NCBI GenBank assembly: GCA_014379345.1
Contig: JACMLY010000137.1
Coordinates: 124,001 to 188,000 of the forward strand
Length of the DNA stretch: 64,000 nt
Source of the DNA: Chitinophagaceae bacterium
GTDB taxonomy: Bacteria > Bacteroidota > Bacteroidia > Chitinophagales > Chitinophagaceae
Direction of reading: 5' to 3'
Position numbers and translations under genes: made by a program. The first letter of the stretch is position 1; every line of letters starts with the position of its first letter. This document shows, in pieces, positions 19,542 through 61,080 of this stretch. A model generated the notes under the pieces. That model ran no database searches. It was given only the letters and a program-made list of their open reading frames with translations, and had not been told where the DNA came from.

Positions 19542-19640
19542 ACGAATTCACGAATAGCTCAAGGGATGACATCCTTAGTCACAATACCCAGCTACCATGC
19601 ATTCAAGGATGTCATCCCTTGAGCTATTCGTGAAATTCGT
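19542..19640. repeat. Long hairpin with GGGATGACATCC arms
   Basis: Arms at 19542-19576 and 19605-19640 (ACGAATTCACGAATAGCTC then AAGGGATGACATCCTT, and the complement) pair over about 35 bp with one bulge. The loop contains CTACCATGCATTCA. A second copy with the same inner arms and loop lies at 34890-34950. It sits 7 bp after a stop codon, between two convergent genes, and may work as a bidirectional terminator. Confidence 0.9.
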
Positions 19641-21451: not shown

Positions 21452-22201
21452 CTATATACCCTTAATATGTTTCTCGTGGTACAGGCTCGAAAATTCACCA
21501 ATCACCCCACGATTTTCATCATTAAAAAACAGTTTGTGAAGTTTCAGGTCTTCAATATCTGATTGCATTACTTTTCGATAAACAGGATTTAAAGTTCCAC
21601 CTGTTTTTCCGGATTCAACCGTAGGATCGTATTGAAATTCGGGATCGCATATTGTACCTCTGGGGTACATCATCCCCGGGATGCCCCCGCCGCGAATATC
21701 CAGGTCTTTGGGATGAATAAGACCAATGGTATGTCCATATTCATGCGCCGCCGTAGTGGAGGTTTGCAATAAATTATCGAGTTTAAAATACCCGGTATTG
21801 GATCCAATACCATCTACAAAAGAAATATTATCCACTGCATACTCCTCGATGCGAAAAAAATTGAAAACCGGATTGTCGTTGTACCATACCGCCTCTGGTT
21901 TCAGATCGGGTTGAAAGATGCCTTCAATACGGAATATCAAATCATACACTCCCTCTTTAATGACAACCTGTGCCTTTGGTTCGTTCCAATGTCTGCTGAT
22001 ATCATCCGCAATCTGCACAGCAATTTCGGAAGATGCGGCTTCTCCGTAAAAATAAAACATGGAATGGATGATCAGCTGATGTGCCCGTTTATGTAATTCT
22101 GCTTCGCCCATAAATCTTTCCTGTCCATATTTGTGATTGGATATAGTATCAGAATAGAAGATACTGAACAATTTGTCCGCAATTGAATTTTCTTTAACCA
22201 A
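21452..22201 (-). CDS. Metzincin-like zinc metalloprotease, no signal peptide
   Basis: A 249-residue protein with a clear metzincin zinc site, HEYGHTIGLIH (HExxHxxGxxH, near residue 154), followed about 17 residues later by GMMYPRG, which could supply the Met-turn. Metzincins are usually secreted, but this protein has no signal peptide, lipobox or membrane helix, so it appears cytosolic or is exported by an unusual path. The N-terminal half (residues 1-140) matches nothing I recognise. It has its own promoter upstream and neighbours that do not suggest a substrate. Confidence 0.7.
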   Translation of the reverse strand: MVKENSIADKLFSIFYSDTISNHKYGQERFMGEAELHKRAHQLIIHSMFYFYGEAASSEIAVQIADDISRHWNEPKAQVVIKEGVYDLIFRIEGIFQPDLKPEAVWYNDNPVFNFFRIEEYAVDNISFVDGIGSNTGYFKLDNLLQTSTTAAHEYGHTIGLIHPKDLDIRGGGIPGMMYPRGTICDPEFQYDPTVESGKTGGTLNPVYRKVMQSDIEDLKLHKLFFNDENRGVIGEFSSLYHEKHIKGI

Positions 22202-22313: not shown

Positions 22314-22919
22314 TTATAAAAAAAATTTTAATAAAGAATCATCATCAGGTGGTGTCAGCTTAAAGTCACGCTCATTATATCCACAAAATTCCTCAGCCAG
22401 GCGTTTATTGCAAATTGAGTTTTTTATTAATCCGGCATAGTAGGCATATGAAGACCATTTCCAGTCTTCAGGTTTTAAGACAAGACCTGCAGCTACCGCA
22501 TTTGCGTGTACGTAATAAAAACATGTGGAGCAATAGTCGAATTGTGAATAATTCGGCGCAAGGATATTTTCCAGCGTAAGACATTTGGCTTTTGTCTTTT
22601 GTCGGAATAAACTTCCTGACCTTTCGTATCTCGTATTGAAGATCCTGGCATACCCACTAATCAATTTTCGGATTCCATTCGTCAAAGGTTCAATGTTCAA
22701 TGCTCCTTGTTTGATAATTAAATCACATGATGATTTAGCATGTAGCTGAAAATGAAAATGGTTAGGCATTAGAGAATAAGCCAGTATTTCCGCATGAGTC
22801 AATACTAATTTAATTGTATAGTTGAGGAAGGTCTGGTAATCGTTATCCGAAAGAAATAGCTGCTGCCTGTTATTTCCCTGATTGAATACGTAGTAGATAT
22901 GATGCGGTTCGAACTTCAT
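22314..22919 (-). CDS. REP-associated tyrosine transposase (RAYT, Y1_Tnp family)
   Basis: A 201-residue single-strand transposase of the IS200/IS605-related Y1 family. The HUH metal site is HFH at residues 54-56 (in LMPNHFHFQLH), and the likely catalytic tyrosine is Tyr136 in CFYYVHANAVAAGL, the place of the usual YIHxNPVRAGL motif. The arginine-rich GSLFRQKTKAK segment is also typical. RAYTs are single-copy genes thought to spread or maintain REP palindromes. Here the first codons lie inside a 40-bp-arm palindrome, and a further REP-like unit follows at 22988, so gene and elements look like a matched set. Confidence 0.88.
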   Translation of the reverse strand: MKFEPHHIYYVFNQGNNRQQLFLSDNDYQTFLNYTIKLVLTHAEILAYSLMPNHFHFQLHAKSSCDLIIKQGALNIEPLTNGIRKLISGYARIFNTRYERSGSLFRQKTKAKCLTLENILAPNYSQFDYCSTCFYYVHANAVAAGLVLKPEDWKWSSYAYYAGLIKNSICNKRLAEEFCGYNERDFKLTPPDDDSLLKFFL

Positions 22920-22981
22920 GTGCGTATTGGTCTGACGGTCCCCGTCTGACCAATACGCACATGAAGTTCGAACCGCATCAT
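22899..22981. repeat. Near-perfect 83-bp palindrome overlapping the RAYT start
   Basis: Arms 22899-22938 and 22942-22981 pair over 40 bp with one mismatch; the outer 34 bp are exact. The left arm includes the first seven RAYT codons, so the start of the gene is duplicated in inverted form upstream. The centre is a REP-like unit (GGTCTGACGG / CCCCGTCTGACC, 22929-22951). Confidence 0.93.
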
Positions 22982-22987
22982 TACGCC

Positions 22988-23010
22988 GGTCAGACGGGGA
23001 CCGTCAGACC
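22988..23010. repeat. Second REP-like unit, inverted
   Basis: These 23 bases are the exact reverse complement of 22929-22951 (GGTCAGACGG then GGACCGTCAGACC). Two opposed copies next to a RAYT is the arrangement of a REP doublet. The fadN stop is 38 bp beyond. Confidence 0.9.
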
Positions 23011-23047
23011 GAGTCCGAAAGTATTAAAAGAGAAAGGTTAATCACCG

Positions 23048-25429
23048 TTAATTCCTCACCGGTTTTCCGCTTTTTAACACACTTTGAATTCGTTCAAGGC
23101 TTTTCTTTTCGCCACATAAACTTAAGAAGGCTTCTCTTTCAAGGTCGAGCAGGTATTGTTCACTTACAAGAGTTGGTTCACTGAGGTCGCCACCGCACAT
23201 CACATAAGCTAGTTTTTTGGCGACAAGACTATCATGCGAAGTTGCATAGCCTGCGGTGAGCATGCCATTAACGCCTGCATATAAGGCGCCGAGGGCAGAC
23301 CGGCCAAGAACTTTAATATCCTTTCGCTGAATAGGCGTGGTATAGCCACTTTCATTTAATTCAATAACACTTCTTTTGGCTTCGGCAATCCTCCTGTTTT
23401 GATTGATGACGACTTCATCCTGCCCTTTGCGCAAAATTCCCAGATCATAGGCTTCATATGCGGAGGTAGCAACTTTTGCCGTAGCGATTGTCAGAAAACG
23501 GTTTTTTAAGGTAATGGTTTCCGGTTCGTCTTCATGCATCTCATCCGCGGCTCTAACAACAAACTCTTTGGTTCCACCACCACCCGGGATCAAACCAACT
23601 CCTAGTTCAACTAGACCTATATACGTTTCTGCTGCAGCACAAACTTTATCTGCATGCAAGCTTAATTCACAGGCCCCGCCAAGCGCAAGTGCATGCGGAG
23701 CAACGACTACAGGCACACCGGAAAACCTTGCTCTTGTCATCGTGTTCTGAAACATACGGATCGCCATGTCCAGTTCATCATACTCCTGCTCAATAGCAAG
23801 CATAAATATCATTCCTACATTGGCGCCGGCTGAAAAATTTTGCGTGTCATTAGCAATCACAAGACCTTTATATTTTTCTTCCGCGATGGAAATGGATCTT
23901 TGAATTCCTTCCAGTACCTCTCCGCCGATGCTTCCCATTTTGGTGTACCATTCCAATCCCAAAACATCATCACCCAGGTGATACAGACGGCAGGCACTGT
24001 TCTTCCAAACCGTTTCATTTTCGAAATTCTTCATTACAATGAAAGTCTCAGCCCCAGGCAATGGCTTGTATGTTTTTGAGGCAACATCGTAGTATAACCT
24101 CTTCCCATTTTCTACTTTATAAAATGATTTAACACCCGAAGCAATCATCTCCTCTGTCCATCCGGCCACTTTGTAACCGGCAGCCTGCATTTTTTTTATG
24201 GTGTTCTCAACACCCAGCACATCCCAGCTTTCAAACGCGCCTATTTCCCAGCCAAAACCGGCCATCATCGCATCATCAACCCGATAGATCTCATCGGATA
24301 TTTCGGGGATACGATGGGATATATATGAAAACAGGCCGTAATGAAAATGCCGGTAAAATTCACCGGCCTTATCCATTCCGGTACACAACGCTTTTAATCT
24401 TGTTTTGAGATCATCTATTGGCTTGGCAGCTTCTACACTCGGAAACTTTGGTTTTTGGCGTGGACCATATTCCATTGATTGCAGGTTCAAAGTCAGTATT
24501 TCTTTTTCACCACCACTGCTTTTCGTTTTCTTGAAAAATCCCTGGCCTGTCTTGTCACCCAGCCAATTGTTGTCAACCATTTTTTGCAACCATGAAGGAA
24601 TCAGAAAGCTATCCCTGGCTTCATCTGCAGGGCAATTGTCGTATACCCCTTTAGCCACTTTAACAAGGGTATCGATTCCCACCACATCAGCAGTTCTGAA
24701 AGTAGCAGACTTCGGGCGACCGATAAGAGGACCTGTCAGCGTATCCACCTCATCAATTGTCAGTCCCATCTTTTCAACAAGTTTAAAAATGGCCATTATA
24801 CCGTATACGCCTATCCGGTTGGCAATGAATGCCGGGGTGTCTTTACACAATACCGTTGTTTTTCCGAGGTACAGATCTCCGTAATGCATCAAAAAATCAA
24901 CAATAGAAGGAGCGGTATGCGGCGTTGGAATGATCTCTAATAATCTCAGGTATCTCGGAGGGTTAAAAAAATGTGTTCCGCAGAAATGCTTTTTGAAATC
25001 ATCCGTTCTTCCTTCGGCCATTAAATGAATGGGAATTCCTGAAGTATTTGAAGTGATCAGGGTCCCAGGTTTGCGAAATTGTTCAACCTGTTCAAAAACT
25101 TTTTGTTTGATATCAAGACGTTCAACCACTACCTCAATGATCCAATCGCAGGAAGCGATCTCTTTCATATTATCATCAAAATTGCCAGTGCTTATACGTT
25201 TGGCAACATCCTTTGTGAAAATGGGAGAGGGGTTGCTTTTGAGAGCAGCCTGCAAAGCATCGTTCACTATTTTGTTGCGAACTGCTTTTTCAGCACTTTC
25301 CGAAGCTTCTTTGGGAACAATATCCAAAAGCAGCACCTGCACCCCAATGCCTGCGAAATGACAAGCTATCCTCGACCCCATAACACCGCTTCCCAGCACG
25401 GCTACTTTTTTGATAATTCTTTTTGACAT
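23048..25429 (-). CDS. fadN: 3-hydroxyacyl-CoA dehydrogenase / enoyl-CoA hydratase, FadN-type
   Basis: A two-domain beta-oxidation enzyme of 793 residues. The dehydrogenase comes first: an NAD loop GSGVMGSRIACHFA (residues 11-24) and the catalytic-His segment FCGTHFFNPPRYLRLLEI. Two C-terminal dehydrogenase domains follow, and an enoyl-CoA hydratase domain lies at about residues 480-690 (GGACELSLHADKVCAA, GLVELGVGLIPGGGG). This order is that of Bacillus FadN, the reverse of E. coli FadB. The usual thiolase partner is not next to it: after its stop come the REP units and RAYT. It therefore probably works with thiolase encoded elsewhere. Confidence 0.9.
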   Translation of the reverse strand: MSKRIIKKVAVLGSGVMGSRIACHFAGIGVQVLLLDIVPKEASESAEKAVRNKIVNDALQAALKSNPSPIFTKDVAKRISTGNFDDNMKEIASCDWIIEVVVERLDIKQKVFEQVEQFRKPGTLITSNTSGIPIHLMAEGRTDDFKKHFCGTHFFNPPRYLRLLEIIPTPHTAPSIVDFLMHYGDLYLGKTTVLCKDTPAFIANRIGVYGIMAIFKLVEKMGLTIDEVDTLTGPLIGRPKSATFRTADVVGIDTLVKVAKGVYDNCPADEARDSFLIPSWLQKMVDNNWLGDKTGQGFFKKTKSSGGEKEILTLNLQSMEYGPRQKPKFPSVEAAKPIDDLKTRLKALCTGMDKAGEFYRHFHYGLFSYISHRIPEISDEIYRVDDAMMAGFGWEIGAFESWDVLGVENTIKKMQAAGYKVAGWTEEMIASGVKSFYKVENGKRLYYDVASKTYKPLPGAETFIVMKNFENETVWKNSACRLYHLGDDVLGLEWYTKMGSIGGEVLEGIQRSISIAEEKYKGLVIANDTQNFSAGANVGMIFMLAIEQEYDELDMAIRMFQNTMTRARFSGVPVVVAPHALALGGACELSLHADKVCAAAETYIGLVELGVGLIPGGGGTKEFVVRAADEMHEDEPETITLKNRFLTIATAKVATSAYEAYDLGILRKGQDEVVINQNRRIAEAKRSVIELNESGYTTPIQRKDIKVLGRSALGALYAGVNGMLTAGYATSHDSLVAKKLAYVMCGGDLSEPTLVSEQYLLDLEREAFLSLCGEKKSLERIQSVLKSGKPVRN

Positions 25430-34889: not shown

Positions 34890-34950
34890 TCAAGGGATGA
34901 CATCCTTGATCACAGTATTAAACTACCATGCATTCAGGGATGTCATCCCT
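34890..34950. repeat. Second GGGATGACATCC hairpin with shared loop
   Basis: TCAAGGGATGACATCCTT pairs with AGGGATGTCATCCCT, and the loop holds CTACCATGCATTCA, the same as the element at 19542-19640. The copies share both arms and the loop but differ in the outer flanks, so this is a defined repeat family. Confidence 0.85.
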
Positions 34951-34954
34951 GCAC

Positions 34955-35009
34955 TTTGCCACGAATTCCACGAATTAGATTCGTGATAATTCGTGGAATT
35001 CGTGGCAAA
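34955..35009. repeat. GCCACGAATT inverted repeat, 23-bp perfect arms
   Basis: TTTGCCACGAATTCCACGAA (34955 on) extends to 34977 and is perfectly complementary to 34987-35009, with a 9-nt loop. Related elements lie at 38844, 61013 and 63359. This copy separates the S66 genes from the catalase remnant. Confidence 0.9.
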
Positions 35010-38821: not shown

Positions 38822-38843
38822 TGATGGATTTTGTCGATTTAGA

Positions 38844-38910
38844 CTTTGCCACGAATTCCAAAAATTAGCACGAATTTAATCCGCGCCAATTCGTGTAATC
38901 CGTGGCAAAG
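38844..38910. repeat. GCCACGAATT inverted repeat between hydrolase paralogues
   Basis: CTTTGCCACGAATT and later AGCACGAATT pair with AATTCGTG and ATCCGTGGCAAAG. The stem is imperfect. It belongs to the same family as 34955-35009. Confidence 0.75.
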
Positions 38911-38915
38911 TTCTT

Positions 38916-47931: not shown

Positions 47932-47986
47932 CCCCGTCTGACGTCCACGTATGTCGGAATCCGTCAGAAGAGGACGTCAGACGGGG
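47932..47986. repeat. REP-like inverted repeat related to the RAYT elements
   Basis: CCCCGTCTGACGTCC (47932-47946) pairs exactly with GGACGTCAGACGGGG (47972-47986). The core CCCCGTCTGAC is shared with the RAYT-linked units at 22929 and 22988, 25 kb away. It starts 14 bp after the dsbD stop. Confidence 0.8.
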
Positions 47987-51836: not shown

Positions 51837-51856
51837 CGGATTCGAATAAGATGATT

Positions 51857-51923
51857 AGCCAATTAGCCGATTAGCAGATTAGCCGATAAATCATCGGCTA
51901 ATCTGCTAATCGGCTAATTGGCT
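51857..51923. repeat. Perfect 31-bp-stem hairpin of ATTAGC words
   Basis: Arms 51857-51887 and 51893-51923 are exactly complementary with a 5-nt loop. The arms are made of AGCCAATTAGCCGATTAGC-type words, as in 9159-9229. It sits between the convergent uvrA and T9SS-cargo genes and may end both transcripts. Confidence 0.92.
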
Positions 51924-51934
51924 TATGAATGTTG

Positions 51935-61012: not shown

Positions 61013-61080
61013 TTTCCAGCCACGAATTCCACGGATCATCACGAAAATTCGTGGTAATCCGTGGAATTCGTGGCTGGAAA
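61013..61080. repeat. GCCACGAATT inverted repeat
   Basis: TTTCCAGCCACGAATTCCAC (from 61013) continues to about 61045 and pairs with 61048-61080 (ending GAATTCGTGGCTGGAAA). The stem is about 30 bp with few mismatches. It lies at the 3' end of the ABC permease gene. Confidence 0.85.

Follow-up and report, generated by a model that had tools for sequence, protein, structure and literature searches.

Why should a transposase gene begin inside a palindrome? In the 64,000-nucleotide stretch of a Chitinophagaceae genome that was analyzed here (the window), the first codons of a predicted REP-associated HUH/Y1 transposase (RAYT) form one arm of a long inverted repeat. A first-pass annotation of this DNA proposed that the repeat folds over the start codon and gives the transposase control over its own synthesis. 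The same arrangement could instead be a mutational scar, and the choice between these readings depends on the anatomy of the repeat, the other REP copies in the genome, and RAYT loci of relatives.

The RAYT gene and the palindrome at its start

The gene at 22314-22919 (minus strand) encodes a protein of 201 aa with an HUH motif within NHFHF at residue 53 and a tyrosine motif, YYVHAN, at residues 135-140. H54, H56 and Y136 are invariant across 19 aligned proteins, and the alignment context suggests that Y136 is the catalytic tyrosine. The NCBIfam model REP_Tyr_transpos matches the protein at E 4.3e-8 and 33.2 bits, below its cut-off of 80; Pfam gave no match for the window protein itself, and PF01797 was matched by 13 of the 19 members of the alignment at E 0.01. 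A profile of this alignment detected E. coli TnpA-REP (PDB 4er8) at E 2.5e-4, and the same entry, a RAYT bound to a REP hairpin, was the best Foldseek match of the structure model (E 2.6e-6, TM 0.53/0.64), which has a mean pLDDT of 75.3 and falls below 50 at residues 127-136, the stretch that holds the tyrosine. Motifs, the TnpA-REP profile match and predicted fold agree with one another and with the identity proposed in the first-pass annotation, and they support assignment of the product as a RAYT. Collagen IV chains, returned when phmmer was used to compare the single protein to the PDB (E 2.8e-5 and 0.19), are regarded as spurious.

The nearest RAYT relatives are ~51% identical to the window protein and lack the inverted copy described below; the nearest named one belongs to a Ferruginibacter MAG (locus L059). 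Placement in a Y1 subclass is split between signals. The window protein combines NHFH with YVHANA, and most relatives carry YIHQNP or a near form but NHFH; in the available part of a published tabulation, subclass 2.6 (mostly Bacteroidetes) has NH[LIV]H plus YIH[QN]NP and subclass 2.4 has NH[IFV]H (PMC6006769), so the tyrosine motif of the relatives resembles 2.6 and NHFH fits the 2.4 entry.

The palindrome spans 83 bp (22899-22981), with 39 of 40 pairs matched in a repeat search. Its arms, 22899-22938 and 22942-22981, are 40 nt each, 98% complementary and separated by a 3-nt loop. At the center lies a 23-bp REP (22929-22951, plus strand; GGTCTGACGG-TCC-CCGTCTGACC) with a single T-T mismatch in its stem, and the 30 bp on either side of it are exact inverted copies of each other. 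The first arm comprises RAYT codons 1-7 (22899-22919), a 9-nt leader and part of this proximal REP; the second comprises the remaining REP, followed by an inverted 30-bp copy of the leader and codons 1-7. Beyond a 6-bp remainder of the spacer, TACGCC (22982-22987), a distal REP (22988-23010, minus strand) is the exact reverse complement of the proximal one. The first-pass annotation had reported seven codons within the arm, 34 exact paired bases per arm and a second 23-mer in opposite orientation, and each of these details was reproduced, including an exact arm of 34 nt over the start codon.

Read along the minus strand, the order is therefore the end of a fadB-like 3-hydroxyacyl-CoA dehydrogenase/enoyl-CoA hydratase gene (23048-25429, minus strand), the distal REP, 6 bp, the inverted codons 7-1 and leader, the proximal REP, the 9-bp leader and the RAYT start. 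The two exact inverted REPs are separated by 36 bp, the inverted doublet with a short spacer by which a REPIN is recognized.

Other palindromes occur in the window. Inverted pairs of another palindromic repeat (GGGATGACATCC type) lie at 19547-19634 and 34893-34950, the first with 30-nt perfect arms, and long palindromes or near-palindromes of CCACGAATTCCA-type sequence are found at 61013-61080, 34955-35009 and 38843-38911. A near-palindrome with 34-nt arms at 51854-51926 overlaps a GATTAGCC tandem repeat, and an imperfect one at 47932-47986 has a CGTCTGAC core and is possibly a decayed or different REP type.

REP copies and their inverted flanks across the genome

A genome-wide search for the 23-mer, as the first-pass annotation had proposed, found 43 sites with at most 3 mismatches, and a reversed control pattern found none. 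The window itself holds two matches, compared with none in 100 shuffles. The genomic sites occur as singles, pairs and tandem arrays. Arrays at L009, L005 and L022 (contigs C25, C41 and C107) have periods of ~41, 34 and 46 bp, respectively. When the segment 22850-23060 was used to search its own genome, the 43 matches outside the locus were each 22-41 bp long, so it is the REP core and its edges that recur, not the palindrome. Thus, of the two elements that were to be sought elsewhere, the 23-mer is dispersed and the 83-bp palindrome is absent from the rest of the genome. The RAYT gene sits beside copies of this genome-wide family, with two REPs upstream; the pattern has no match downstream of RAYT within the window, so the gene is not flanked by REPs on both sides.

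Although the palindrome is confined to one locus, its form recurs. The extent of exact inverted copying between flanks was measured at 47 REP matches with at most 4 substitutions, consisting of the 43 sites plus four nearby. Exact inverted flanks of at least 7 bp were present at 6 of the 47, and of at least 10 bp at 4 of them; the six lengths are 30 (the window locus), 23, 18, 10, 7 and 7 bp. As a null, left flanks were compared with right flanks of different REP sites, and none of 2058 such pairs reached 7 bp (largest, 6). The excess of REP-centered inverted flanks in this genome is clear, and it is claimed for this genome alone. In five relatives, inverted flanks of at least 7 bp occurred at 4 of 99 REPs, and of at least 10 bp at 1 of 99 (all pattern sites of G346, G361, G384 and G126, 5 of 10 of G310, and none of the 5 of G356), but flanks there are often common to several copies, which spoils the cross-pair null, so no excess is claimed for them.

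The six cases are not spread evenly over the family. All of them belong to the 20 REP matches with a single neighbor within 100 bp (ten pairs, one of which consists of overlapping matches), with none among the 17 REPs in larger arrays or the 10 solitary ones.

At two of these loci the direction of copying can be read. In the window, the RAYT start makes up the outer arm, and its protein sequence is conserved, which identifies the inner arm as the copy. At C134:15276, a YigZ-family gene (PF01205, E 9e-35; TIGR00257, 156.7 bits, below its cut-off of 168) provides the 23-bp source arm with its 3' end. Two congeners have a homologue of this gene and no REP after it; the third gave no match. In these two best-polarized cases, the gene (the RAYT 5' end or the yigZ-family 3' end) is the source and the copy is on the far side of the REP. 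The YigZ-family gene (L004 1423-1491; C134:15253-15321) also ends in the REP, which supplies its TGA stop, and an inverted copy of the gene's final codons lies on the opposite side.

A third locus has a more complex form. At C3:14436, a 10-bp arm lies within a penicillin-binding protein 1C gene (TIGR02073, above cut-off), and the spacer of the REP pair there is built from both outer flanks (18 and 10 bp), each copied in inverted form. Polarity at this locus is regarded as readable for the 10-bp side alone and not for the 18-bp case at C3:14388. The inverted pair lies in frame inside the gene (L075 971-1069; C3:14370-14468), and the insert is absent from the three congeners searched. Because REP-centered inverted copying is also found beside genes other than RAYT, a mutation that recurs at REPs is the better description.

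Probable foldback synthesis and a possible part for RAYT

Taken with the anatomy of the locus, this recurrence suggests that the palindrome is probably a product of foldback (template-switch) synthesis primed from a REP hairpin, and thus a scar left by mutation, not a switch built for the purpose. The locus would be a REPtron, a RAYT with its own family of REPs, and one of these REPs would have primed the foldback. The strand that carries the RAYT start and the REP would have become single-stranded, at a replication fork or a nick, allowing the REP to fold on itself and its 3' end to be extended by 30 nt along its own strand. This extension would have copied the RAYT leader and codons 1-7 in inverted form before the extended end regained its original path ahead of the second REP. 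A central REP that is still whole despite its mismatch, an exact copy that begins at the REP edge and a source on one side are the trace expected of extension from a completed hairpin.

Several observations are consistent with foldback synthesis. An exact inverted copy adjoins an inverted repeat and its source arm is known, being the conserved RAYT N-terminus at a locus that is common to other genera. There are also precedents in the available portions of published work: 22 of 90 amplification junctions in E. coli were at REPs, for which the authors pointed to secondary structure (PMC3161906), template switching at quasipalindromes has been studied in the same species (PMC7202029), and template switching can generate perfect hairpins (PMC8794818). 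Other features fit less well. The return junction has no obvious microhomology and leaves 6 bp unexplained, all six cases lie in REP pairs, which plain foldback does not require, and the window has other long palindromes that lack this REP. A single event with two switches, producing both doublet and inverted copy, was considered by reasoning only; the TACGCC remainder does not fit it, so the REP doublet is treated as older than the inverted copy.

A further possibility is that RAYT itself takes part. RAYT would nick beside a REP, the 3'-OH of the hairpin would prime synthesis on its own strand, and the end would be rejoined to the strand held through a phosphotyrosine, so that palindrome growth would be a by-product, or even a step, of REP spread. 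We consider this unlikely, though of the alternatives to plain foldback it survives best. The window protein is similar to the RAYT in 4er8, a RAYT-REP complex, and the occurrence of six of six long cases in REP pairs is in its favor. Enzymes of the HUH type to which RAYTs belong leave a 3'-OH and a 5'-phosphotyrosine, and replication priming is one of two possible routes of REP spreading named in the text available (PMC8266576); in addition, covalent protein-DNA complexes are described, in the part of the report consulted, as raising template switching in E. coli (PMC6357072). However, the three junctions inspected by eye (the window, C134:15276 and C3:14388) do not follow the C|T rule of the E. 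coli enzyme, as far as that rule is given in the available text, and plain template switching leaves the same footprint without RAYT. A broader proposal, that RAYT makes palindromes, so that REPs grow by inverted copying of neighboring genes and in this way build REPIN spacers and longer hairpins, with the enzyme's own start locked by chance and the system throttling itself, is a speculation that we regard as doubtful.

RAYT loci in relatives, self-control and known systems

If the palindrome were a control element, it might be looked for at other RAYT genes. In three genomes of the same genus, no homologue of the window RAYT was found at E 1e-10 or better, and no REP with at most 1 mismatch. 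Their fadB-like gene is followed by a homologue (60-63% identity) of the window ORF 21452-22201, which in the window sits beyond RAYT. Among 11 RAYT loci checked in other genomes, nine have a fadB-like gene 77-474 bp upstream; of the remaining two, L036 starts just 210 bp before RAYT and L033 has no fadB match. A hairpin of the GTCTGAC type (REP type) was seen by eye between the fadB-like gene and RAYT in all nine linked loci.

The window form of the REP was present in 4 of 5 RAYT-bearing genomes and in none of the 3 congeners without this RAYT. Of 11 RAYT-bearing genomes searched with an earlier pattern, whose loop has 3 bases, 3 gave a match, the five of the former search being others than, or repeats of, those in the latter. 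Other RAYT-bearing relatives have REP forms with different loops, or none that the patterns matched. Because G377, G368, G083 and G149 gave no match to either REP pattern applied to them, the presence of RAYT does not imply the exact window form of the REP.

The start codons themselves were compared at 38 of 41 RAYT or Y1-type loci (L024 and L025 had no match to the window RAYT and L028 was truncated at a contig end), by scoring exact arms on the start codon that are 6 nt or longer and pair with sequence no more than 200 bp upstream; at the distant loci L062-L064 the aligned start is not ATG. At the 37 starts other than the window's, no exact arm over the start codon exceeds 8 nt. Such structure is thus not conserved among these loci, and since the window locus is unique among the 38, the palindrome is a feature of this lineage and not of the RAYT system, nor is it a conserved control element. 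Relatives whose RAYT has no palindrome had been named in advance as evidence against a built-in role for the repeat; this is what was found for the extended palindrome, while the REP-type hairpin is kept upstream.

These comparisons bear directly on self-control, in which the palindrome would be a selected regulatory element that hides the RAYT start in the mRNA, or forms a cruciform bound by RAYT, so that the enzyme limits its own synthesis. The prediction that the start codon is hidden was borne out by folding: in a transcript read through from the fadB stop (191 nt, MFE -98.1 kcal/mol), its predicted probability of being unpaired is 0.001, compared with 0.42 and 0.43 in two shorter transcripts that lack the inverted copy. 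The REP-type hairpins retained upstream of RAYT in the fadB-linked relatives also speak for some such role, and REP hairpins have been proposed to lower RAYT expression from readthrough transcripts (PMC3733652, available text). On the other hand, the 37 other RAYT starts have no comparable arm, and similar palindromes at REPs stand beside unrelated genes, so selection for control of the transposase did not hold up and is, in our estimate, improbable. Scans of 22800-23150 for sigma-70-type promoters and for terminators found nothing; the promoter scan is blind to other promoter types. The start of the readthrough transcript is an assumption.

A side effect of the buried start codon is plausible. 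On the folding prediction it may lower RAYT translation, as a by-product of mutation rather than as a conserved control device. The inverted copy also creates an upstream ORF of 21 codons (22916-22981, minus strand) whose stop overlaps the RAYT start (ATGA), which is probably a coincidence. In the RAYT frame, 22917-23000 contains no methionine codon ahead of the start.

Two further explanations can be set aside more firmly. A chimeric inverted join made during assembly or amplification is very unlikely: the genome is a draft in 173 contigs, and strand-displacement amplification can yield chimeric by-products according to the accessible text of PMC9484634, but the far side of the palindrome regains its expected context, the second REP and then the fadB-like gene, unlike a simple chimera, and the same form is seen again at several loci. 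Least credible is entry of a REP into the loop of arms that were already palindromic; IS200-type enzymes do act on single-stranded hairpins, but both polarized source arms are gene ends (the RAYT start and the YigZ-family 3' end), no other RAYT start among the 37 lies under a long palindrome, and none was apparent by eye behind the YigZ-family genes of congeners.

Foldback synthesis at REPs therefore remains the preferred reading. The spread of REPs has been called unsolved (PMC8266576, in the part available), and several REPs flanked by exact inverted copies of neighboring DNA, two of them with a readable direction, provide a concrete footprint against which foldback synthesis, dependent on RAYT or not, can be tested. 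The locus also offers a caution, in that a striking palindrome over a start codon should not be read as a regulatory device before relatives have been checked. In a literature search that covered few subscription papers, and so is weak evidence of absence, no paper joins 'repetitive extragenic palindrom' with 'template switch', and REP-centered inverted gene copies are undescribed in the titles and abstract openings among the matches listed.

The system shares with known REPtrons of RAYT/TnpA-REP (E. coli TnpA-REP, 4er8; PMC6006769) the HUH and tyrosine motifs, REPs both beside the gene and genome-wide, and an inverted doublet. Unlike those systems, it has no GTAG within 10 bp of either window REP, its REP lies 9 bp from the start codon and inside an 83-bp palindrome, and no downstream REP of this pattern occurs in the window. 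Flanking repeats that overlap the 5' end of a tyrosine transposase gene ('5'ov') are reported in the available text of PMC3733652; however, the CGTC-tagged repeats there are not tied to transposase genes, and inverted copying of coding DNA is unmentioned in that text. Two inverted REPs with a short spacer also recall REPINs or BIMEs as presented in the accessible part of PMC3116915, but in the window 30 of the 36 spacer bases repeat the neighboring gene start in inverted form. As in the quasipalindrome template-switch mutations described in the available parts of PMC7202029 and PMC8794818, an inverted copy beside a short inverted repeat yields a perfect stem; the present cases differ in being read from genomes rather than from mutation assays, and in having been nucleated repeatedly by a dispersed, transposase-linked repeat.
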